A DNA stretch of 25,444 nucleotides from a virus: the IMG/VR virus record IMGVR_UViG_3300042691_018649, positions 1-25,444 of that record; one strand, written 5' to 3'. A program made the translations under genes and the position numbers. Position 1 is the stretch's first letter, and each line of letters starts with the position of its first letter. Positions 10,512-24,878 of the stretch are shown in pieces. The notes beneath the pieces are model-generated. The model was not told the origin of the DNA. It ran no database searches and saw only the letters and a program-made list of their open reading frames with translations.

Positions 10512-11492
10512 ATGGCAAACATTTTAAACTTTGACAACGTTGCTTGGGAAGGACAACAGGCGAATGATGTATTTATCAAACCCGCATTCCTTATCCCGTC
10601 CATCACTTCTGAAGTGGAAGTTATGCTGGGCGTTAAATCTAAGCGTCAAGTAGTACTTGATACCAACCTGCGCGACATCGTGCGTGCATCTTCAGGCTGC
10701 GGTCGCACAACTGCCGGTGATGTTATCGACTTAACCGATAAATTCCTTGAGGTATGTGACGCTAAAATCAACCTGGAGCAATGCGCTAAAAACTTGGCCG
10801 ATACCTTCATGGAAGAATGGCTGAAAACCGGCAACGCTATTTATGACCTTACCGGAACTGAAGTTGCTACATACATTGAGCGCAAAGTGTCTGAAGCACT
10901 TGCCCGTGACGTTTACACAATCCTTTGGTTTGGCGACACACAAAGTAACAACGCTACATTGGCTACCTGCGATGGATTGTGGAAGAAACTGATTAATGGT
11001 GTATCAGCTTATGGCGTACAACGTGCTTACACTTTCCAAAGCAATACTTTAACAGCTGGTCAATCATTAACCGTTCTGCGTGAAATGCACGAAAACGCAA
11101 GCGATTTGTTAGATCAGGTTGCTGACAATGAGAAGTATTTCAAACTTACCCGCGACCTGTACTACAACTACCTCGCGCTTCGTGAAGATGCTTGCTGTGG
11201 TGATATGTCATGGCAGATGCTTGAAAACGGATCACGTCAGGTTTACTTCCGTGGCATTCCGGTGTACAAAGCAACTGAATGGAGCAACGCTATTAGCCAC
11301 TACAACCTGTCATTCCCTAACCGCGCGATTTACACCGCTAAATCAAACCTGTACTTGGGAACTGATGCTATCAGCGACACCAACAGCTTTGAGATGTACT
11401 ACGAGCGCAAAGACAAATTGACTTACATTGATGGTGAGTTCAAAATTGGAACTCAGTACATGTACGATGAATTGACCGTGTTGGCTTACTAA
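10512..11492 (+). CDS. Major capsid protein (HK97 fold)
   Basis: The 326-residue product follows the protease-scaffold gene, the classic position for the capsid protein. Features include an N-arm (MANILNFDNVAWEGQQANDVF), a long spine-helix region (INLEQCAKNLADTFMEEWL, ATYIERKVSEALARDVYTI) and a C-terminal beta stretch with RGIPVYKATEWSNA, then TYIDGEFKIGTQYMYDELTVL, read as HK97-type E-loop, A-domain and P-domain parts by order only. Six or more cysteines (SGCGRT, DACCGDM) are unusual for a cytoplasm-assembled shell and recur in capsids of related Bacteroidota phages. Codons look smoother and more C-ending than in neighbouring genes, as expected for a highly expressed gene. Confidence 0.85.
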   Translation: MANILNFDNVAWEGQQANDVFIKPAFLIPSITSEVEVMLGVKSKRQVVLDTNLRDIVRASSGCGRTTAGDVIDLTDKFLEVCDAKINLEQCAKNLADTFMEEWLKTGNAIYDLTGTEVATYIERKVSEALARDVYTILWFGDTQSNNATLATCDGLWKKLINGVSAYGVQRAYTFQSNTLTAGQSLTVLREMHENASDLLDQVADNEKYFKLTRDLYYNYLALREDACCGDMSWQMLENGSRQVYFRGIPVYKATEWSNAISHYNLSFPNRAIYTAKSNLYLGTDAISDTNSFEMYYERKDKLTYIDGEFKIGTQYMYDELTVLAY

Positions 11493-11511: not shown

Positions 11512-12084
11512 ATGGCAGCTTGTAAAATTACAGCCGGATTGGATTGCGCATCGTGCAACGATATCCGTGGAAAGTCAGGATTGTTTAATGAAATCTACGT
11601 CATCAATTACGATGACGTGGATTCAACATTAGGCATTAATGGAATCTACTATACTGGTGTAGCGCCTTTTTATGTTACCGGACTTGCAATTAGCGCATAC
11701 GCAAATGCTTATAAGTTCTGCACTAAAAAGCAGAGCGGAGCAATTACGCATGAGCTTGTTGTAACGGACGGTGGCTATAAATACTACACTCAAACGCTCA
11801 CGGGTTCATTTATTCAGTCAGATGCGCAAAGCAGATTGGATATTGATGGCCTTATTGGTGGCAATTTCTACATTGTTGCACGTGACTTTAATAACCGCTT
11901 TTGGTTGTTAGGCCAAGGCGATGGTGTTGAATTAACTGCTGCCACACAAACTACCGGTACAGCACCTGGCGATGCTGCTGGCTACACCTTTACCTTCACA
12001 GGTAACGTTGACGGCCTTGCCCCGCAATTGCTGAAAAACGGTAACTATGAGGACACTTTGAATTACCTTGAATCATTATTGTAA
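11512..12084 (+). CDS. Major tail (tube) protein
   Basis: The protein has 190 residues, typical for a tail tube subunit, and follows the capsid gene in the same transcript. It begins with ACKITAGLDCASCNDIRG, a Cys/Gly-rich N-terminus like that of tail tube proteins of Bacteroidota phages. The body is beta-rich: FNEIYVINYDDVD, THELVVTDGGYKYYTQTL and YTFTFTGNVDGLAPQLL. The strong Shine-Dalgarno fits a protein needed in hundreds of copies. A hairpin terminator follows directly, closing the head-tube unit. An alternative is a capsid decoration protein, but size, strands and the final DGLAPQLL segment favour the tube. Confidence 0.7.
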   Translation: MAACKITAGLDCASCNDIRGKSGLFNEIYVINYDDVDSTLGINGIYYTGVAPFYVTGLAISAYANAYKFCTKKQSGAITHELVVTDGGYKYYTQTLTGSFIQSDAQSRLDIDGLIGGNFYIVARDFNNRFWLLGQGDGVELTAATQTTGTAPGDAAGYTFTFTGNVDGLAPQLLKNGNYEDTLNYLESLL

Positions 12085-12116
12085 AGAGGTTCTGTTTTCA
12101 TATTGTTAGGTTTGGA

Positions 12117-12151
12117 AAATGCCCCGCAGGAATGTGGGGCTTTTCTTTTTT
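12117..12151 (+). terminator. Rho-independent terminator after tail tube gene
   Basis: GCCCCGC (12121-12127) pairs with GTGGGGC (12134-12140), a 7-bp stem with one G-U pair and a six-base loop. AAAAT precedes it and TTTTCTTTTTT follows (12141-12151). It ends the head operon just ahead of a new promoter for the glycosyltransferase cassette. Confidence 0.88.
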
Positions 12152-12196
12152 GTGCAAAAATTTGTTTGTATTTTTAAAAACTACATATTAATTTTG
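12148..12196 (+). promoter_or_regulatory. Promoter with upstream dyad for glycosyltransferase operon
   Basis: TTTG at 12165-12168, a 20-base spacer and TAATTTTG at 12189-12196 fit the Bacteroidota consensus. The -7 box ends four bases before ATG 12201. The dyad TTTTGTGCAAAA (12148-12159) sits upstream of the -33 box and partly shares the terminator T tract. The same dyad on the opposite strand lies before the promoter near 24850. Confidence 0.55.
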
Positions 12197-12200
12197 GCAC

Positions 12201-12377
12201 ATGACCCCGCAAGAACTGAAAACACAAATAGATGCTGCCGGTGGCCGTGCTATGCCGCGCAACAATCCGTTATGGAAGCAATTATTTGACCTTGCCCAAG
12301 CAAGTAAGGCAGGCATTCCAAAGAGTTGCGGTTGCAGGTTTAACAAGGCGTATGATTGGTTGGCTAAAATTTCATGA
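12201..12377 (+). CDS. 58-residue protein of unknown function, first gene of the glycosyltransferase operon
   Basis: This short gene runs from the ATG directly after the promoter to a TGA overlapping the next start (ATGA). Its product has CGCRFNKAYDWLAKIS at the end and one or two helices before (LWKQLFDLAQASKAG). There is no membrane segment. Two close cysteines (CGC) might bind a metal. Being first on the transcript and nearly leaderless, it could also serve as a leader gene that couples translation to the next gene. I do not recognise the family. Confidence 0.6.
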   Translation: MTPQELKTQIDAAGGRAMPRNNPLWKQLFDLAQASKAGIPKSCGCRFNKAYDWLAKIS

Positions 12378-13057
12378 AAACAGACCTGTATCAAATTTAC
12401 TATTCACCTGAAACAAAGGCAAAGCTGCATCCTGGGTGTATTGGCATTGATAACAGCAAGCGGTTTGAGCCATACCCTACATTAGAAAGCCGTACTATTT
12501 GCGATTTGTTTGCTTCCAATGACTTTGCCTGCGATTACCTTGGCGTGCTTTCATGGAAATTCGAAATGAAAGTGCCAATTAGCATCAGCAACTTGCGCCT
12601 GCGCATTGAGCAGGATGAATATAAGCATGATGTCTACACCTTTTTTTCAGCGCTTACGCATCCAAACATTTGGCAAAAGGGCGAAGTATGGCACAATGGG
12701 ATAATTATGATGGCAGAGGAAATGTTTAAGCGCATTGGCTTTCATTTTAACCTGCGCACCATACCGCGCACTCCGGTGGTGTATCAAAACGCGCATGTGA
12801 CCAAATTAAGCGTGTATAAAGATTTTGTTGACAATTGGCTGCTTCCATGCGTGAACGTATTGGAAACCCATCAGGATTTGCAGGATGAGTTAAACAAGCG
12901 TATGCCGTACAGGGTTGGCAATACCAACCATAATACAGAAGCGCAACTAATGCGCAGCATTGGCAAACCTTATTACACTATGCACGCCTTTATTGCTGAG
13001 CGTATATTCAGCACGTATTTAGCCTTTCATCCACAGAAAATAAAAAACCTTTGCTAA
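12374..13057 (+). CDS. Protein of the glycosyltransferase cassette, family not recognised
   Basis: The 227-residue product starts with LYQIYYSPETKAKL and contains YLGVLSWKFEMKV and, near the end, PYYTMHAFIAERIFSTYLAFH. A 'host cell view' motif such as GVLSWKF and a C-terminal ER-x-F-S helix recall the small glycan-synthesis proteins grouped with GT-A enzymes, but I see no clear D-x-D metal motif. It overlaps its neighbours at both ends (ATGA before, TAATG after), so it is certainly part of the cassette. It may be a glycosyltransferase of an unusual type or a partner that supplies or binds the acceptor. Confidence 0.6.
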   Translation: MKTDLYQIYYSPETKAKLHPGCIGIDNSKRFEPYPTLESRTICDLFASNDFACDYLGVLSWKFEMKVPISISNLRLRIEQDEYKHDVYTFFSALTHPNIWQKGEVWHNGIIMMAEEMFKRIGFHFNLRTIPRTPVVYQNAHVTKLSVYKDFVDNWLLPCVNVLETHQDLQDELNKRMPYRVGNTNHNTEAQLMRSIGKPYYTMHAFIAERIFSTYLAFHPQKIKNLC

Positions 13058-13761
13058 TGAAATTTAGCGTAATACATCCCAGCCGTGGCCGAGCTCATTT
13101 GGCGTACAAGACATACCAAAAGTGGATGTCAAACATTAGTAGCCTGCACACGTATGAGTATATTTTGAGCATTGACGCAGATGACCCGCAATTGCATGAA
13201 TACATGCGCTTGTTTGCATCCAATCAGGTATTTATCAATCCTGTGCCATCATCAACGGTGCAAGCGGTAAACAATGCGGCAGGCGTGGCAAAGGGCAAAG
13301 TGCTTATTTGCATTAGCGATGATTTTGAGCCTGCCGTACATTGGGATGAACTTATTGCTGCTGAGGTAGGCGACTGCAAAGATTGGATTCTAAAAACGCA
13401 AGACGGCACGCAAGGGTGGATAATTACGCTGCCAATAATGGATAGGGAGTATTATAACCGCTTTGGCTACATTTACCCGCCCATGTACAAGCACATGTTT
13501 TGCGACACGCACATGACCTGCGTGGCTGATTTATTAGGCCGCAAGATTGTGAGCAATTTGCACTTTAGGCATAAGCACTATTCGCAGGCTGATGGCATAA
13601 AAAAAGATAGCGTAAGCCAACGGGCTGATGCAACATGGAACGAAGGCGAACGCGTTTTTTTGGATTATTGGAAGCGCGGGTTTGATATCGATAATCCGGT
13701 TGGCAAAATACAAGACCAAGGCACTATTAATTGGGTAAAAAGTAAACTGAAACAAATATGA
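13057..13761 (+). CDS. GT-A fold glycosyltransferase-like protein
   Basis: The ATG at 13057 shares its A with the TAA of the previous gene; a TTG at 13051 is less likely. Of 234 residues, the start (FSVIHPSRGR) is the first strand of a GT-A domain, followed by ILSIDADDP (residues 37-44) and VLICISDDFEP (82-92), the place of the D-x-D nucleotide-sugar/metal motif. The middle contains the NNAAGVAKGKV segment typical of family 2 enzymes, where the helix before D-x-D carries N and G. A late His-rich part (HFRHKHYSQADG) may help catalysis. It would transfer a sugar from a nucleotide donor to an unknown acceptor in the cytoplasm. No membrane segment is visible. Confidence 0.75.
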   Translation: MKFSVIHPSRGRAHLAYKTYQKWMSNISSLHTYEYILSIDADDPQLHEYMRLFASNQVFINPVPSSTVQAVNNAAGVAKGKVLICISDDFEPAVHWDELIAAEVGDCKDWILKTQDGTQGWIITLPIMDREYYNRFGYIYPPMYKHMFCDTHMTCVADLLGRKIVSNLHFRHKHYSQADGIKKDSVSQRADATWNEGERVFLDYWKRGFDIDNPVGKIQDQGTINWVKSKLKQI

Positions 13762-13985
13762 GCGGCAAAGCATTTAAAACAGAACGCAACAAGTGGAAGA
13801 AAGCATTTGAAAAAGCAAGCGAGCAAAACCGTATAATGGTTGGCCATTTGCTTTCCATTGCAGCAGACCCACAATCAGAAATTGCGCAAAACATCATCAC
13901 CTTTTACAAACAGAAATACGATGAACTCAAACAAAAAACTATCGATACTGATAGCAACGGTGCTGGAACGTCAGCAGCAGTTTAA
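13758..13985 (+). CDS. 75-residue basic helical protein of unknown function
   Basis: The product starts at an ATGA overlap with the previous stop. It is rich in Lys and Gln and predicted mostly helical (AFKTERNKWKKAFEKAS, ITFYKQKYDELKQK). Its last 65 bases overlap the next glycosyltransferase gene in another frame, one of the larger overlaps in this window. It may act as a small partner or chaperone of the neighbouring enzymes, or serve only to carry ribosomes to the next start. I do not recognise a family. Confidence 0.6.
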   Translation: MSGKAFKTERNKWKKAFEKASEQNRIMVGHLLSIAADPQSEIAQNIITFYKQKYDELKQKTIDTDSNGAGTSAAV

Positions 13986-14523
13986 TCAATTGGTTCAGGA
14001 GTTTAACCGCCAAATTGAGATTAACAAGTATCAAGACATTGTGGAGGTGTGCAGCATTAGCGACAATAAGCAAATGACTATTGGCGCAAAAAGGCAAAAG
14101 CTGCTTGACATGGCCGCAGGTGAGTACGTTGTATTCTTTGATGATGACGATTGGCCGGAGGCGTATTATGTGGCTGAAGTGGTGGCCGCATTAGAAACAA
14201 AGCCTGATTGTATTGGTATGCTTATACGCATGACCACCAATGGCCGGCAACCTCAAATGTGCTGCCACAGCCTGCAATTTCCTGACTGGAAAGATAACTA
14301 TGCAGGATATGACTATGTGCGTAACGTAACGCATTTCAATCCGGTCAAGTCTTACATTGCAAAATTGGTAGGCTTTCTTGATAAACGTTTTGGTGAGGAT
14401 AAAGAGTATAGCGATAAAGTGACCTTGCTGTGCAAGGATGAGGTGTTTATCAATAAGCCCATGTTTCACTATAGGTACACCACACATATACCACACAATA
14501 AAAAATACGGGTTTACTAAATGA
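13921..14523 (+). CDS. Family 2-like glycosyltransferase, first of a paralogous pair
   Basis: The ATG at 13921 is chosen because the protein from there begins with the canonical first strand KLSILIATVLERQ. An upstream ATG at 13840 would add 27 residues that are the shadow of the previous gene. The 200-residue product has ISDNKQMTIGAKRQKLLDMA, then VVFFDDDDWPE with a four-Asp run at 74-77 (D-x-D region), and a late GEDKEYSD segment where family 2 enzymes have their catalytic base (ED). It resembles the next gene over its whole length, with DDDD at the same residue number. No membrane helix is seen, so it acts in the cytoplasm on an unknown acceptor. Confidence 0.82.
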   Translation: MNSNKKLSILIATVLERQQQFNQLVQEFNRQIEINKYQDIVEVCSISDNKQMTIGAKRQKLLDMAAGEYVVFFDDDDWPEAYYVAEVVAALETKPDCIGMLIRMTTNGRQPQMCCHSLQFPDWKDNYAGYDYVRNVTHFNPVKSYIAKLVGFLDKRFGEDKEYSDKVTLLCKDEVFINKPMFHYRYTTHIPHNKKYGFTK

Positions 14524-15101
14524 AAACATTAGCTATACTTATACCGTCTATTCCTGAAAGAATTGAACAGCTGAAATTAATATTTGACGAGTTGCAGCGC
14601 CAAATATCTGAATATGAACGGCCTGAGCAGGTAAAAATAATTACATTAATTGACAATAAGCAGTTAAGCATTGGACAAAAGCGCCAGGAATTGGTAAACT
14701 TGGCTTTAAAAGCAAACGCCAAATACTGCACTATGTTGGATGATGATGACTATGTGACCGCCAATTACGTGTACGAGATTTGCAACGCGATACATGACAC
14801 CAATGTTGATTTGATCACCTTCAATCAGCTTGCGCGCATAAACACCGCGCATAGCATTGTACATTTTAAGCACAAAGGCGAGTTGCAAGCGTTTAATTCA
14901 AATGGCATTACTGAGCGGCCCGCATGGCATTGCAATGTTTACCTTACAGAAATTGCCAAAAATTGCTTATTCGGAGATTCAAATTGGGGCGAAGATGAGC
15001 CATTTTCACAAGCAATAAATGATTTGTGCGAAACAAGCCATCACATTCCGCACGTTTTGCACCTGTACCAACACGATTCACATAAAACAGCAGCCAAATG
15101 A
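14520..15101 (+). CDS. Family 2-like glycosyltransferase, second of a paralogous pair
   Basis: This 193-residue enzyme begins LAILIPSIPERIEQL and has LIDNKQLSIGQKRQELVNLA, then CTMLDDDDYVT with DDDD at residues 74-77, matching the preceding paralogue. A later WGEDEPFSQAI supplies the E-D pair expected for the catalytic base. Between these is a short acceptor region (RPAWHCNVYLTEIAKNCLF) that differs from the paralogue, so the two may use different acceptors or sugars. Start and stop overlap both neighbours by ATGA. Two steps of one oligosaccharide, or a duplicated activity diverging after duplication, are both possible. Confidence 0.82.
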   Translation: MKTLAILIPSIPERIEQLKLIFDELQRQISEYERPEQVKIITLIDNKQLSIGQKRQELVNLALKANAKYCTMLDDDDYVTANYVYEICNAIHDTNVDLITFNQLARINTAHSIVHFKHKGELQAFNSNGITERPAWHCNVYLTEIAKNCLFGDSNWGEDEPFSQAINDLCETSHHIPHVLHLYQHDSHKTAAK

Positions 15102-15772
15102 ATGTAGTAATTAACGGTTATACTGGCAACGGTTGGTATGCAGATGGGCAAAAACGCCTGCGTGAATCATTGCAAGGCATGAAAGGTTTTGAATTGTCAT
15201 TTAGCAAAACAAACCTTGACACCAACCCGTACTTTTTGCACTCCTGCCCGTACACGGTAAAGGCGGCAGAGATTTACACGGCCATTCACCAAGGCGCAAC
15301 ACGCATCCTTTGGTTGGATTGTTCAATATGGGCTATAAAAGACATACAGCCTATCTTTGACATTATTGAGCGCGATGGCTATTACTTTATAAAATCGGGC
15401 TACAACTGCGCGCAAACAAGTAATGACAAGGCATTGGAATACTTTAACATAAGCCGCAACACGGCAGAGCATTTACCTGAGATTTGGAGTTGCGTTTTTG
15501 GACTTGATTTGTCCAATTTAGACGCAGAAGCGGTGTGCGAATTGTTTTTACAATCAGCAAAAGATGGCATATTTAACGGTCCTCGTCATCACGGATGGGG
15601 CAGCAAAGACTCGCGTTTTTTGTTTCACCGGCAAGACCAAACATGCCTATCACTTGCCGTGCATACTGAAATAAGCAACCCCATATTACATGAGCCTACT
15701 GAGCATTTGTGCTACGTTGGGCAAGATTGGCCTGTTACCGATACAACCATTTTTAAAATGAAAGGAATGTGA
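15098..15772 (+). CDS. GT-A-like glycosyltransferase (LPS/galactosyl-type pattern)
   Basis: The product has 224 residues, begins with VVINGYTGNGWYADGQKRL and has ATRILWLDCSIWAI (67-80), where D-x-S takes the place of D-x-D after a buried strand. Near the C-terminus HRQDQTCLSLAVH (177-189) resembles the R-x-D-Q-x-x-x-S/N helix found in many sugar transferases of capsule or lipopolysaccharide synthesis. The start at ATGA overlaps the previous gene; the end shares TGATG with the methyltransferase. Donor and acceptor are unknown. A non-enzymatic glycan-binding relative cannot be excluded because the D-x-D is incomplete. Confidence 0.7.
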   Translation: MNVVINGYTGNGWYADGQKRLRESLQGMKGFELSFSKTNLDTNPYFLHSCPYTVKAAEIYTAIHQGATRILWLDCSIWAIKDIQPIFDIIERDGYYFIKSGYNCAQTSNDKALEYFNISRNTAEHLPEIWSCVFGLDLSNLDAEAVCELFLQSAKDGIFNGPRHHGWGSKDSRFLFHRQDQTCLSLAVHTEISNPILHEPTEHLCYVGQDWPVTDTTIFKMKGM

Positions 15773-16407
15773 TGGGCCTACTTACAAAACTGAAACAATT
15801 TTATCTTATGAACAATAAACAATACTTGGCGCAAAATGCGCTTGGCTTTGAGGGCGACACCTTCCTCAAGGAATGGTTTGAAAAAATCACCACAGAAAAC
15901 AAAATTACTTGGATTGTTGAAACCGGCACTTTCAGGGGCGCAACTACGCGGCACTTTGCTAACATGGCTGCAAAGGTTGACACCATTGAAATTAATGCTG
16001 AGAACTTTGCCGCAGCAAAAGAAACACTTGCCGGAGTTGAAAATGTAAACATGCACTTTGGCAATTCTGCTGAAGTATTAAAAGCCATTTTTGAAGCACG
16101 GCCAAAGCAAGGTAAAAAGCCCAACACGTTATTTTTTTTGGATGCGCATTGGGGCGAGTACAACCCGCTGCTTGATGAGCTGGCACTGATTAAAGAATAC
16201 GGATTTAAGCCTGTTATTGCGATACATGATTTTAAAGTACTTGGCAATGCTGAACTTGGATTTGATACATACGGCTCAATCGTATATGAATGGGATTACA
16301 TCAAAGACGGTATTGAAGCGATATATGGCGCGGGTAAATACCGCGTGGAGTACAACAGCCAGGCAACCGGTGCAAAACGTGGCGTAATTGTAATATTGCC
16401 TGCATGA
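15772..16407 (+). CDS. Class I SAM-dependent methyltransferase
   Basis: The ATG at 15772 lies in TGATG with AAAGGA just upstream, a better start than GTG 15769. Of 211 residues, motif I is WIVETGTFRGATTRHFA (48-63), the acidic end of strand 2 is TIEINAEN (71-78), then HFGNSAEVL (95-103) and FFLDAHWGEYNPLLDELALI (121-140). The LDAHW-type motif is seen in methyltransferases of glycan and FkbM-like or Methyltransf_24 groups. In an operon of glycosyltransferases it probably O-methylates a sugar, for example to cap a chain or to alter antigenicity. The substrate is inferred from neighbours only. Confidence 0.82.
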   Translation: MGLLTKLKQFYLMNNKQYLAQNALGFEGDTFLKEWFEKITTENKITWIVETGTFRGATTRHFANMAAKVDTIEINAENFAAAKETLAGVENVNMHFGNSAEVLKAIFEARPKQGKKPNTLFFLDAHWGEYNPLLDELALIKEYGFKPVIAIHDFKVLGNAELGFDTYGSIVYEWDYIKDGIEAIYGAGKYRVEYNSQATGAKRGVIVILPA

Positions 16408-16622
16408 ATCTAAAATCAATAGCTGAAGGTTTTACCAATTTGCTGTTCACAAAAGAGTTGGTTGAAGATGTGGCAAAGCAACGCAAGGGGATTTGTGATG
16501 CCTGCCCTGTAAGCGAATTTGGCAAAAGCAAATATTGCAAACTGCGCAATGGCGGGTGTGGGTGCTATCTTCCTGCCAAGCACAGGGCAATGGATGAGGA
16601 ATGCCCAAAAAATAAATGGTAA
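16404..16622 (+). CDS. 72-residue Cys-rich, probably zinc-binding protein
   Basis: The product carries CDACP, YCKL, CGCYL and a final ECPKNKW. The six or so cysteines arranged as two pairs plus GCGC strongly suggest a structural zinc ribbon. Similar mini-proteins ending in CP-x-x-KW are common in tailed phages and usually left unnamed. The first helix (KSIAEGFTNLLFTKELV) is amphipathic. It is embedded between the methyltransferase and the last glycosyltransferase gene, with ATGA and TAATG junctions. Whether it serves the glycan pathway or is a generic phage protein is open. Confidence 0.75.
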   Translation: MNLKSIAEGFTNLLFTKELVEDVAKQRKGICDACPVSEFGKSKYCKLRNGGCGCYLPAKHRAMDEECPKNKW

Positions 16623-17383
16623 TGCACAAACTTGGTATTGCATACAATGTTTTTGACGGTGAAGAACTGCTTGACGGCTCCATCATGTGCGTGCGTCCCA
16701 TTGCTGATTACATTGTGGCCGTGGTTCAAACAACCTCGAATCACGGCCAATTTTATACCGGTGGGTATTCAGAATGTTTGCGCCTTTGTGAACTGGGCTT
16801 AATTGATGAAATTGCGGTTGTTGAAACAAATGGCAGCATCCCGATTAAAAAGGAAAAGGCCAAGCGGCAAATAGGCGCTGATTATTGTAAGAAAAACGGC
16901 TGCACCGTAATGGCTCACATGGATTGCGATGAGTACTATCATACAGACCAGTACCAAACCTGCTATGAGCGTTTTATTGCGTCAGATTTTGACGGTTCAG
17001 CCTGCAAAATGCAAACGTATTACAAACGGCCTACATTAAAGCTGTGGCCTCCGGAGGAGTATTATGTGCCGTTGTTTCATCGCATTGATAAATCGCACGC
17101 CATGATTGACCATTATCCGGTTTATTCTGATCCAACCCGCAGGATGCACACGACTAAGTTTTTGCCATTTAGCAGGTCAGAAATTGAAATGCACCACTTT
17201 TCATTTGTGCGCAACAACATCAGGCGCAAGTTGGAAAACTCATCTGCACGGCAAAACTTTAACAGCCGATTAGACGACCATGTGCAGCAATGGTTCAATG
17301 CTGAAGAAGGCTGTGTATTGGATTATTTCGGGCATGAGAAGCGTTTGATTGAATGCCCTAATGTGTTTAGCATTAACCTGTAA
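16622..17383 (+). CDS. GT-A-like glycosyltransferase, last gene of the cassette
   Basis: I prefer the ATG at 16622 because it makes a TAATG overlap like other genes in this operon; the ATG at 16616 would add two residues. The 253-residue product has ADYIVAVVQTTSNHG, then TVMAHMDCDEYYH with D-x-D at 101-103, flanked by a conserved-looking MDCDE. Many family 2-like enzymes of this DUF-type contain a W-x-x-EY-x-x-P segment, here LWPPEEYYVPL. The C-terminal part has HHFSFVRNNIRRKL, a His/Arg-rich helix that could hold the donor phosphate. It is the final gene before the convergent minus-strand block; the stops overlap by 11 bases. Confidence 0.78.
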   Translation: MHKLGIAYNVFDGEELLDGSIMCVRPIADYIVAVVQTTSNHGQFYTGGYSECLRLCELGLIDEIAVVETNGSIPIKKEKAKRQIGADYCKKNGCTVMAHMDCDEYYHTDQYQTCYERFIASDFDGSACKMQTYYKRPTLKLWPPEEYYVPLFHRIDKSHAMIDHYPVYSDPTRRMHTTKFLPFSRSEIEMHHFSFVRNNIRRKLENSSARQNFNSRLDDHVQQWFNAEEGCVLDYFGHEKRLIECPNVFSINL

Positions 17384-17627
17384 GGCTTGTGTCTTTATCA
17401 ATCCAGGCAAGCAAATGAAATAGCTTTCCTTTTAGCCTGTATGTTTCGCCTTCGTCAAATAGATTTTTCATTACAGGCTCACCACCAAATGTACTCTTGC
17501 TTTCATCAATTACCTGAGAAATCATCAGTTCGTTAAGTAAAGAAGCCCATGCGCGCATTTCTTCCAAATGCAACACAGGGGCCTCCATTTCTTCAATTTG
17601 CTTTGCTTTGGTTTTCGATCCCGACAT
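17373..17627 (-). CDS. 84-residue acidic-helical protein of unknown function
   Basis: I use the ATG at 17627 because a longer reading starts inside the phosphoesterase gene and adds 35 shadow residues. The product begins SGSKTKAKQIEEME and is mostly helical (LHLEEMRAWASLLNELMIS), ending LLAWIDKDTSLTG. No domain is recognised. It lies 22 bases downstream of the phosphoesterase stop and also has a possible promoter of its own (17631-17638). Its 3' end overlaps the end of the glycosyltransferase operon on the other strand by 11 bases. Confidence 0.62.
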   Translation of the reverse strand: MSGSKTKAKQIEEMEAPVLHLEEMRAWASLLNELMISQVIDESKSTFGGEPVMKNLFDEGETYRLKGKLFHLLAWIDKDTSLTG

Positions 17628-17630
17628 ACA

Positions 17631-17638
17631 CAAATTTA
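17631..17638 (-). promoter_or_regulatory. Possible -7 box for the 84-residue gene
   Basis: TAAATTTG on the minus strand ends three bases before the ATG at 17627. No TTG is found at the expected -33 distance, so this is weak evidence only. If used, the message would be leaderless. Confidence 0.25.
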
Positions 17639-17649
17639 AGCAATTTGGC

Positions 17650-18666
17650 TCACCTAACTTTGCCTTGAATGATTTTTTTGTTATGCACTTCAAAATCACC
17701 TGATTGCTCTTTTTCAACCAATGCGAAACCAAGGTTACATTGCCCTACTTGGGGATTGTATTCCGGTTTTAAATCAGATAAGCAACCGGTACTCCATGTA
17801 CCATATTGTTTGCCTTGCATATTTGTCCAAAGATGCTCGGATGATTTGTGCAAGTGGCCTATAATAGTTGACTGAAATGTTTTCATTTGTACGCCACGAG
17901 CAGGTGATACCGGTGCAAATATGCCTTTTACGATGTGATGGCCGTGCGCAACCATAAGATGCCCAAATTCCATCCAATGCGTATCGGGTACAAACTCTAT
18001 GCTTTTTTCACGCAGTTTCAATACTTCGGGGAGTTCCATAAATCCCAAATTAAACAAATCAGCAGCGTTGCGAATTATATAGTTATTCCAACGAGCATCA
18101 TGATTGCCAGTGTGGTACACAATGGTTTGTTTTGGAAAAACCTTTCTGAGCATATTTAAAAAGTTTTCTGTTTCCTGAAGTTCATCATGCACGGTCATAG
18201 CCGATGGCTTTACTAACCACTTGCCTAAACGTGGGAAATCCATTAAGTCACCATTGATAATTATGGTATCGATGCCAAACTTATCGCCTTCTTCAAACGC
18301 AATATCAATAGCCGCGTCATCTTGATGTCCTATGTGTATGTCAGAAATAACAAGTGCCTTTTTATTCGCTTTAGCAAATACGTATGGCTCAACTTTGAAA
18401 TTATCACGATGTTCAACGGGGAACTGCTTGCGCGCTTCATCAAGCCTTTCTTTAAATGTAATTATTGCATTTGCGCTTGTGTTTCTAACCCTTTTCCCGC
18501 TTAATCCCTGAACAGCCCGAATTGAACTTCTTGCTTCCTCTATATCCTTAAACACGGCATTGTATTTGGCAAACAATAGCTTTGCAAGGGTTCTGTTTTC
18601 GGTAATTTGATAGTTTTCAAGCAATATTTGACGCGCCAAATCTCGCTTAGATAATTGTTTTCCCAT
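17650..18666 (-). CDS. Calcineurin-like metallophosphoesterase with helical N-terminal domain
   Basis: All signature motifs of the family are present in 338 residues: DIHIGH (109-114), NGDLMDFPRLG (138-148), GNHDARW (187-193), VAHGHH (239-244) and GHLHKSS (270-276). These bind two metal ions and hydrolyse a phosphate ester or nucleic acid backbone. Residues 1-75 form an N-terminal helical region with SKRDLARQILLEN, EEARSSIRAVQGLSGKRV, basic and perhaps DNA-binding. Similar proteins occur in Bacteroidota phages. The gene is reversed relative to everything around it and separates the glycosyltransferase cassette from the portal. Substrate unknown: RNA, DNA, cyclic nucleotide and nucleotide-sugar are all open. 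Confidence 0.85.
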   Translation of the reverse strand: MGKQLSKRDLARQILLENYQITENRTLAKLLFAKYNAVFKDIEEARSSIRAVQGLSGKRVRNTSANAIITFKERLDEARKQFPVEHRDNFKVEPYVFAKANKKALVISDIHIGHQDDAAIDIAFEEGDKFGIDTIIINGDLMDFPRLGKWLVKPSAMTVHDELQETENFLNMLRKVFPKQTIVYHTGNHDARWNNYIIRNAADLFNLGFMELPEVLKLREKSIEFVPDTHWMEFGHLMVAHGHHIVKGIFAPVSPARGVQMKTFQSTIIGHLHKSSEHLWTNMQGKQYGTWSTGCLSDLKPEYNPQVGQCNLGFALVEKEQSGDFEVHNKKIIQGKVR

Positions 18667-18691
18667 GATTAATATTTTATAATTATTGCTA

Positions 18692-18719
18692 CAAATATAA
18701 GAAAGTTTTAAAAAACAAA
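18692..18719 (-). promoter_or_regulatory. Promoter for the metallophosphoesterase gene
   Basis: On the minus strand TATATTTG (18699 to 18692) is a perfect -7 box. TTTG (18719 to 18716) lies 16 bases upstream, slightly shorter than usual. The leader to ATG 18666 is about 20 bases and AT-rich, with no Shine-Dalgarno. Confidence 0.5.
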
Positions 18720-18725
18720 AACTTT
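18702..18725. promoter_or_regulatory. AT-rich dyad in the divergent promoter region
   Basis: AAAGTTTT (18702-18709) and AAAACTTT (18718-18725) form a perfect 8-bp inverted repeat separated by eight bases. It overlaps the -33 region of the minus-strand promoter and lies about 35 bases upstream of the -33 box of the portal promoter. It could be an operator or a bidirectional terminator-like element. Chance is possible in such AT-rich DNA. Confidence 0.35.
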
Positions 18726-18758
18726 TTATTTTGCAAGTGCTTACAAATTATTTGCATA

Positions 18759-18787
18759 TTTGGGTAATAATGGGTAATGTATATTTG
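18759..18787 (+). promoter_or_regulatory. Promoter for the portal-lysis operon
   Basis: TTTG at 18759-18762, a 17-base spacer and TATATTTG at 18780-18787 match the consensus. The -7 box ends five bases before ATG 18793, so the message would be leaderless. Confidence 0.6.
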
Positions 18788-18792
18788 CATTG

Positions 18793-20073
18793 ATGCAAAA
18801 TGCCAACATAACTGAATTGCAAAAGGGGATTTACCTCATCCAAGCTAAAGCGCCTGAACCGCTTACGGCTGTAAACAATAAGCAGCGCAAAATAATCAAC
18901 TACGGGGCAAAAAATAATTACCCGCAAGAGATACTGAGGGCAATTAATCGTTCAAGCTATGGCGCAAGCTGTGTAAAAACATTTGCATCGTATATTTTTG
19001 GCAACGGCATAAAAGTGAGCCAAGACACGCCATTTTCGCGTGAGATTCAATATTACCTGCTCACGCATGAGTTCATGCAAAAAATCATTTACGACTACGC
19101 CATGTTTGGCGGGTTTGCTTTTCAATGCCGGTTTAACAGCAATGGCAATATTGCTATGCGCTCATTTAACGGCAGCGGCATCGTGCATGTTGATTTTAGT
19201 ACCATTCGCTTGGGCAATTACGATGAAACCACGTTTGACGTGCGCACCGCATGGATATCACAAGATTGGGAGCAGTACACCAAAAAGGAATACAAACCTA
19301 TTGAAATTGAATTGTTTGACGTAATCAAAGCGCGCCAAGCGGTTGAAGATATTAAACAACGCGGAACAGGCTCGTACAATGGACAATTGTTTTACACCAA
19401 GCAATACAAGCCTGGCGAACCATTTTACCCATCTCCGGTATGGGCTGCTGGTTTAAGTTGGATTTATTGCGATGGGCAAATAGGTGAGTTTCACGAAAAC
19501 AACATTGATAATGGCTTTTTCCCGTCTGTAATTCTGTATCACCCAGGCATCATGTCAGGCGAAAAAACAGCCGATGGCCGTGATGTGGTTGATGCGCTAA
19601 AAGAAGATTTAGAGCAATTCCAAGGCGCTGAAAACAGCGGTAAAATATTCAACTTGTTTGGCCCAAGCCGCGAAAGCGCACCGCAATTGATACCCATATC
19701 AGCCAACAATAATGCTGATTTGTTCAACACATTAGCTGAAATTATTGAAAAAAAGATAGTATCTGCATTTCAAATGCCTAAATTATTGGCCGGCATTGAA
19801 ACGCCTGGCGCATTGGGTAGCACAAATGAGATTGCCAACAGCATTGAGATGTATGTATCGCAAATACAAGGGCATATCAAATTTGTAGAGCAGGAAATTA
19901 ACCGCGTATTGCAATACGTGGAAGGTTATGACGGCACAAAAGTAGAATTTGTTACCAATAAGCCTATCAGCTACCTTGATCCTGATTTTCTTGCTTACCT
20001 TGACGAATCAGAAATACGCACATCATTGGGATATCCCGCAACAAGACCATCACAACAAGACACCACAATATGA
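18793..20073 (+). CDS. Phage portal protein
   Basis: I use the ATG at 18793; a TTG three bases upstream is less likely. The 426-residue product has the portal layout: an N-terminal part (NYGAKNNYPQEILRAINRSS), a stem helix region, a clip loop near GRDVVDALKEDLEQFQG and a long crown helix NEIANSIEMYVSQIQGHIKF followed by VEQEINRVLQYV. The SAFQMPKLLAGIETPGALGS segment is typical of portals of siphoviruses, where residues after F-x-x-P contact the tail. Twelve copies form the DNA channel at one head vertex; terminase docks here. It lies about 18 kb from the terminase gene and has its own promoter. Confidence 0.82.
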   Translation: MQNANITELQKGIYLIQAKAPEPLTAVNNKQRKIINYGAKNNYPQEILRAINRSSYGASCVKTFASYIFGNGIKVSQDTPFSREIQYYLLTHEFMQKIIYDYAMFGGFAFQCRFNSNGNIAMRSFNGSGIVHVDFSTIRLGNYDETTFDVRTAWISQDWEQYTKKEYKPIEIELFDVIKARQAVEDIKQRGTGSYNGQLFYTKQYKPGEPFYPSPVWAAGLSWIYCDGQIGEFHENNIDNGFFPSVILYHPGIMSGEKTADGRDVVDALKEDLEQFQGAENSGKIFNLFGPSRESAPQLIPISANNNADLFNTLAEIIEKKIVSAFQMPKLLAGIETPGALGSTNEIANSIEMYVSQIQGHIKFVEQEINRVLQYVEGYDGTKVEFVTNKPISYLDPDFLAYLDESEIRTSLGYPATRPSQQDTTI

Positions 20074-24362: not shown

Positions 24363-24393
24363 TTTGATTTTTTAAAACTTTCAGTTAGCTTTG
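24363..24393 (+). promoter_or_regulatory. Promoter for the Cro/CI-like regulator
   Basis: TTTG at 24363-24366, a 19-base spacer and TAGCTTTG at 24386-24393 fit the consensus. The -7 box ends five bases before ATG 24399. The spacer holds TTTTTTAAAACTT, which resembles the spacer of the promoter near 24850 and may be an operator of the regulator itself. Confidence 0.55.
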
Positions 24394-24832: not shown

Positions 24833-24878
24833 TTTTGCACAAAATAGTTTGCGTTTTCTGAAACTTGCTGTACATTTG
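24833..24878 (+). promoter_or_regulatory. Promoter with dyad before the 109-residue gene
   Basis: TTTG at 24848-24851, 19 bases, TACATTTG at 24871-24878. The dyad TTTTGCACAAAA (24833-24844) is the reverse complement of the one before the glycosyltransferase operon. Here the leader to ATG 24902 is about 20 bases, longer than at other promoters. Nothing else is seen in the gap 24799-24901. Confidence 0.55.

Follow-up and report, generated by a model that had tools for sequence, protein, structure and literature searches.

A probable glycan-building gene cassette between the capsid and portal genes of a phage, probably of Bacteroidota

The window analysed here is the whole virus record IMGVR_UViG_3300042691_018649, 25,444 bases long, which holds the end of a terminase gene, tail genes, a tape measure gene and a head protease gene (9359), and then a capsid-to-portal region. 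The slot between the capsid gene on one side and the portal gene on the other holds a cassette of ten open reading frames (ORFs), all on the + strand from position 12201: an ORF of 58 amino acids (aa), followed by nine genes, A to I, at 12374-17383. The cassette and the elements just 5' of it are as follows.

12121-12140, + strand: terminator-like hairpin and T-run (8 pairs, 6 of them G-C), 3' of the capsid genes
12165-12196, + strand: Bacteroidota-type promoter match, TTTG-N20-TAATTTTG, with an ATG 4 nucleotides (nt) downstream
12201-12377, + strand: 58-aa ORF; no relatives found in Pfam, PHROG or the locus comparison
12374-13057, + strand: A, probable glycosyltransferase by its predicted fold (GT-A, like the N-terminal, GT111 part of WbbM)
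13057-13761, + strand: B, glycosyltransferase, phrog_14945 (profile match 9.4e-19)
13758-13985, + strand: C, 75-aa ORF overlapping D; no relatives found
13921-14523, + strand: D, glycosyltransferase family 2 with a DDDD motif (PF00535, phrog_14775)
14520-15101, + strand: E, glycosyltransferase with a DDDD motif (phrog_8858, 1.4e-24)
15098-15772, + strand: F, glycosyltransferase with a predicted GT-A fold and D-C-S (AF2 model with Foldseek and VIA)
15772-16407, + strand: G, probable class-I S-adenosylmethionine methyltransferase (PF13578, PDB O-methyltransferases)
16404-16622, + strand: H, small Cys-rich protein of phrog_13558, a family of unknown function (PHROG match 2.6e-9)
16622-17383, + strand: I, probable glycosyltransferase with a D-x-DEYY motif (from motif and company)

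An original prediction, made from the DNA letters, had described the nine genes as a separately promoted run joined by ATGA, TAATG or TGATG overlaps. The run is indeed tightly coupled, and eight of the nine junctions are of these types; the description fails for C/D, which is a 65-nt overlap. The promoter claimed for it was recovered at 12165-12196 as a match to what we take to be the Bacteroidota consensus. Seven such sites lie on the two strands of the window against 2.6 expected, a number reached in none of 100 shuffles. The five on the + strand (760-789, 12165-12196, 18759-18787, 24363-24393 and 24848-24878) each stand immediately 5' of a gene, and four of them have an ATG 4-6 nt past the box, which suggests leaderless messages; two more matches are on the - strand. 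Together with the hairpin at 12121-12140, the promoter match sets the cassette apart from the capsid genes. The predicted boundaries stood in these two upstream elements, but the terminator scan was not above chance overall (9 found, 9.2 expected; sigma-70 sites in the same scan, 23 found, 18.9 expected) and no clear terminator was seen downstream of I, past which lie a convergent - strand ORF (17373-17732) and then a metallophosphoesterase gene. Rfam and tRNA scans of the window gave no match, and repeats in the cassette region were taken as chance. Third-position GC is 0.464 in the cassette and 0.418 in the 12 structural genes compared, values near enough that the cassette does not look recently foreign. 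Genes A to I are probably one transcription unit of a phage, which is itself probably of Bacteroidota.

Profile and structure searches, which had been proposed as a check on the glycosyltransferase reading, placed five of the nine genes in glycosyltransferase families or folds: B, D and E by profiles, A and F by predicted fold. D alone passes the PF00535 cut-off (28.3 bits against 23.3), with B, E and I below it; it also matches phrog_14775 at 1.8e-36 and, by tblastn, 59 named phage records (35 Mycobacterium, 22 Gordonia, 2 Actinoplanes). E scores 20.7 bits with PF00535, under the cut-off, and is 31% identical to D (1e-21). B reaches Pfam GT2 at 0.019, under the cut-off, and aligns at 24-26% with Streptomyces phage glycosyltransferases; 61 of the 63 records that it matches are Streptomyces phages. 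A script motif search found D-x-D in B, D, E and I and not in A, F or G, while F reads D-C-S instead, so that the D-x-D or DDDD motifs claimed for at least four genes, and the D-x-S claimed for a fifth, are all accounted for.

Structures were predicted for A and F since neither had a significant sequence match; a tblastn search of named phages with A, F and G likewise gave none. The AF2 model of F (pLDDT 76) came from an alignment of 6 sequences, two of them merely 13-15% identical to F. Its first Foldseek match was domain 1 of PBCV-1 A064R (E 1.9e-5, 14% identity), and VIA placed BoGT6a first (Z 12.9) and A064R at 12.7. Altogether 103 PDB chains were matched at a Foldseek E of 0.001 or less, and the best 50 of the 103 are nearly all named glycosyltransferases; the predicted fold of F thus matches solved GT-A enzymes and points to a GT-A fold. 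For A, VIA gave WbbM with Z 11.7 across 194 residues at 14% identity, the runner-up having 8.4, and plain Foldseek gave weak matches, mostly glycosyltransferases, with a best E of 8.9e-3. The N-terminal part of WbbM is reported to be assigned to GT111 (PMC12269835). The DUF4422 profile did not match A or its homologues (3 members), which come from the viral loci L050 and L072 of the comparison below. In I, the D-x-DEYY motif is invariant across 9 aligned rows; matches to PF00535 were sub-threshold both for I (0.16) and for a homologue (0.028), and the profiles of I and B found no significant sequence relatives in the PDB. Its motif and its company suggest that I is probably a sixth glycosyltransferase.

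The methyltransferase announced for the run, G, stands as a probable one whose Pfam match lies under the cut-off; its best PDB O-methyltransferase match is 6.9e-4, and from sequence it may be a sugar O-methyltransferase. Homologues of G were found only in one locus (L061), in two places. Two other identities were rejected: the defence gene mad2, the only PADLOC match (2.6e-5), which we read as the common methyltransferase domain, and an Erm protein, for which the best NCBIfam match was 6.2e-4 with 19.3 bits against a cut-off of 475. The homologue of H in L050 matches DUF6171 at 7.2e-5, under the cut-off.

Relatives of the cassette were sought in a viral scan with I and two Lak phage homologues as queries, which gave 51 loci, two of them the virus of the window, and in a genome scan with I, which gave 39. 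Families B, D/E, F and I are all present in three of the 49 other viral loci (L050, L070 and L071) and in one of the 39 genome loci, L095, a contig of a Bacteroidetes metagenome-assembled genome (MAG) with tail sheath-, tape-measure- and terminase-like phage genes (named by eye). In five of five places, the window included, these families follow one another on one strand as B, D/E, F, I. Of the 49 viral loci, 29 have a B-type domain, a loose measure because several of them nearly duplicate one another and the profile may extend to GT2 domains in general. When B, F, A, G and D were each scanned singly against viral contigs, the only matches were two further contigs of this virus, near-identical to the window, and megablast of 11512-20073 against named phages found no match. 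In L055, I stands immediately 5' of the portal gene. Long runs of glycosyltransferase-like and sugar-nucleotide-type genes (by eye) surround the I homologue in the large viral contigs L045, L048 and L054.

The fullest match to the window is L050, a distant relative with the cassette in the same slot. Its order is protease, capsid protein, a homologue of the 190-aa protein that follows the capsid protein in the window, A, B, D/E, an HNH-like gene (by eye), TylF, FkbM, F, H, I and portal. The methyltransferases TylF and FkbM, identified by Pfam, lie between D/E and F, whereas G of the window lies between F and H; FkbM-like genes were seen by eye in L070 and L095. The F homologue of L050 (6994-7689) is broken by an in-frame stop, either decay or a sequencing error. 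Relatives thus keep a shared order, and the dispersal of the genes one by one that would have spoken against the original prediction was not found. We conclude that the cassette is very probably a conserved glycan-building gene set.

The histories of its members agree less well. In a tree of B (9 rows), the window joins L050 (86/87; long branches flagged), whereas in a tree of I (9 rows) it joins L041, L044, L045 and L048 (90/90), apart from L050; in the D/E tree (10 rows) no fork is firmly supported. Piecewise assembly is as likely as transfer of the whole. The cassette might even be a loose island of separate sugar-modifying genes with no common product, as would fit the lack of one clean history among the B, D/E and I trees and the many settings in which relatives of D and E are found. 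We regard this as improbable given the single promoter, the coupled starts and the recurrence of B, D/E, F, I in that order at five places.

The genes that flank the cassette include two candidate acceptors for a glycan and the far border of the slot.

10512-11492, + strand: major capsid protein, candidate acceptor (phrog_1623, virion structural protein, 2.3e-7)
11512-12084, + strand: 190-aa protein, candidate acceptor (phrog_19091, function unknown)
17650-18666, - strand: metallophosphoesterase gene (phrog_221), between cassette and portal
18793-20073, + strand: portal protein, far border of the slot (phrog_11226, 6.2e-54)

Against the proteins in the equivalent places of L050, the capsid protein compares at 32% and the 190-aa protein at 30%. 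The latter had been called a tail tube terminator, an identification that is not supported here: its PHROG is of unknown function and it has no Pfam match. Its PDB matches, mostly antibodies with a best value of 0.0051, were taken as chance. No acceptor site was picked out by the capsid protein alignment. In phage GodonK an annotated metallophosphoesterase stands immediately 5' of the major head protein. Among named phages, Cellulophaga phage phi46:1 has three genes between the portal and a structural protein that occupies the capsid position, one of them annotated as an SGNH hydrolase or tail fibre and as a virion component by mass spectrometry, and three Parabacteroides or Phocaeicola phages have four small genes in the capsid-portal stretch (placed by position). 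The genome is partial, 25.4 kb of window and 4.6 kb from L004 against 34.8 kb for phi46:1; L004 16656-21281 is the same virus past the right end of the window and carries NinB, DnaA C-terminal-like and DnaB helicase genes.

We propose that the cassette most likely assembles on a virion protein a short glycan that perhaps bears a methyl cap, and we hold this with fair rather than high confidence. The original prediction had left the target undecided between virion protein, host surface and phage DNA; homology and position now favour a virion protein, as we infer. In four of seven phages inspected (LittleE, phiAsp2, Forza and GodonK), the D homologue is found behind capsid or head-tail genes. 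The soluble GT-A enzymes B, D, E, A, F and probably I would act in succession in the host cytoplasm, taking host nucleotide sugars as donors, and would build a short oligosaccharide, most likely on the major capsid protein or its 190-aa neighbour, after which G would add a methyl cap; H, C and the 58-aa ORF would be accessory or unrelated. The order of action, the sugars and the cap are all conjectural. Host-supplied donors would agree with the earlier claim that nucleotide-sugar synthesis genes are lacking: Pfam and PHROG scans, which covered not all small ORFs of an incomplete genome, showed none. The glycan-building part of that earlier account is upheld; the methyl cap is plausible, given TylF and FkbM in L050 and the TylF-like domain of Che8 gp108, but G itself is a weak case.

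No hydrophobic stretch of 1.6 or more occurs in any of the ten proteins of the cassette, which fits a cytoplasmic acceptor and bears on a second possibility, that the cassette alters the host surface (lipopolysaccharide or capsule) and so masks receptors or blocks superinfection. Serotype-converting gtr clusters feature a membrane flippase and a membrane-anchored transferase, and neither is seen here; furthermore, the cassette sits in the virion module both in the window and in L050. Soluble enzymes could still use the host's own lipid-linked intermediates, and relatives of I are accompanied by sugar-type genes in large phages and by other glycosyltransferase-like genes in bacterial MAG contigs. 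A resembles a domain of an O-antigen galactofuranosyltransferase, as described in (PMC12269835), and phage glycosyltransferases are reported to be able to change host serotype (PMC10955285). On balance we consider a host-surface target unlikely. That the enzymes glycosylate phage DNA against host nucleases is more doubtful still, and we give it very little credence. DNA hypermodification clusters contain a gene that makes the modified base as acceptor, and no hydroxymethylated-base gene was found among the ORFs scanned, which is not decisive in an incomplete genome. E weakly matches a PHROG of hydroxymethylcytosine glucosyltransferases (0.0075), and DNA-modifying phage glycosyltransferases have been reported (PMC12838424, PMC12619734).

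Several observations weigh against a glycan on a virion protein. The match of G to PF13578 is weak (1.1e-3, 20.3 bits, under the cut-off of 26.3), and the AF2 model of A has a pLDDT of 70 from a 3-sequence alignment, with one good model in five. The capsid protein of the window has no serine/threonine-rich C-terminal tail. Neither gp109 nor gp110 of phage Che8 was matched by any profile or protein of the window, and none of the ten cassette proteins matches phrog_854, the gp110 family. In the remaining three of the seven phages (Fryberger, Avani and Che8) the D-family genes stand apart from capsid genes, and relatives of B lie among non-structural genes in both Streptomyces phages inspected. 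Many relatives of I, finally, belong to large phages, amid sugar-type genes, or to bacterial MAG contigs, and may have another target there.

More tentatively, B, D/E, the methyltransferase, F and I may be a self-standing mobile glycan-coat module of Bacteroidota phages, docking in different structural slots of unrelated tailed phages and varying the end of the glycan by methyltransferase exchange. The slots seen are capsid-portal in the window and L050, and beside terminase and contractile-tail genes in L095; the discordant B, D/E and I trees count against the idea, which we think possible but less than probable. If it is true, exchange among the G type, TylF and FkbM would let particle coats change like serotypes. 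Phage-encoded virion glycosylation has been reported for a few mycobacteriophages, so that sugar coats are not new and the present gene set would be a new version of them; a narrow open-access search found no literature joining Bacteroidetes, phage, glycosyltransferase and capsid glycosylation. A conserved set of up to six transferases, with methyltransferases that can be exchanged, in phages of Bacteroidota would carry virion glycosylation into another major phylum, and a defined gene set in a fixed slot lets one ask what use a sugar coat has to a phage that meets no antibodies.

The closest known systems are those of Che8 and of the cluster O phages such as Corndog. According to papers citing Freeman 2023, glycosylated proteins occur in Che8, Corndog and Myrna, capsid glycosylation requires gp110 in Che8 and gp38 in Corndog, the glycans are carried on the C-terminal ends of capsid and tail-tube proteins, and in cluster O phages an O-methyltransferase gene is followed downstream by three tandem glycosyltransferase genes (PMC12363180, PMC12619734, PMC11600133). 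Like these loci, which are reported to modify capsid and tail tube (PMC11600133, PMC12363180), the cassette combines tandem overlapping glycosyltransferase genes with a methyltransferase function, and both D (3.1e-20) and E (3.4e-19) are homologous to Che8 gp108, a D-type domain joined to the TylF-like one. Unlike them, it has six candidate GT-A enzymes against three, a separate and different methyltransferase and a place beside the capsid gene, whereas the Che8 genes are near the genome end. The parts and the setting thus resemble Che8-type loci, but without a gp110 homologue the cassette is not of the gp110-dependent type. The runs of LittleE (gp15-gp21) and phiAsp2 (pas33-pas35), actinobacterial phages for which the literature consulted reports no virion glycosylation, follow the annotated major head protein gene directly or lie near it, as the cassette does; gp15 and pas33 are D homologues and pas34 starts with a B-type domain, and no A, F, H or I homologue is among their listed proteins. 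In pas34 (L035 5647-7440), an annotated DNA methyltransferase that follows the D homologue, it is this glycosyltransferase domain that opens the protein. The GT111 domain of WbbM shares the predicted fold of A, which differs from WbbM in being a single domain with 14% identity and no DUF4422 profile match. F is likened to A064R of the chlorovirus PBCV-1 by fold only (14% identity, the latter a multidomain protein of a eukaryotic virus), which does not imply common descent; there, glycosyltransferases and methyltransferases (A064R/A061L) are reported to finish and methylate the capsid glycan (PMC9614988).

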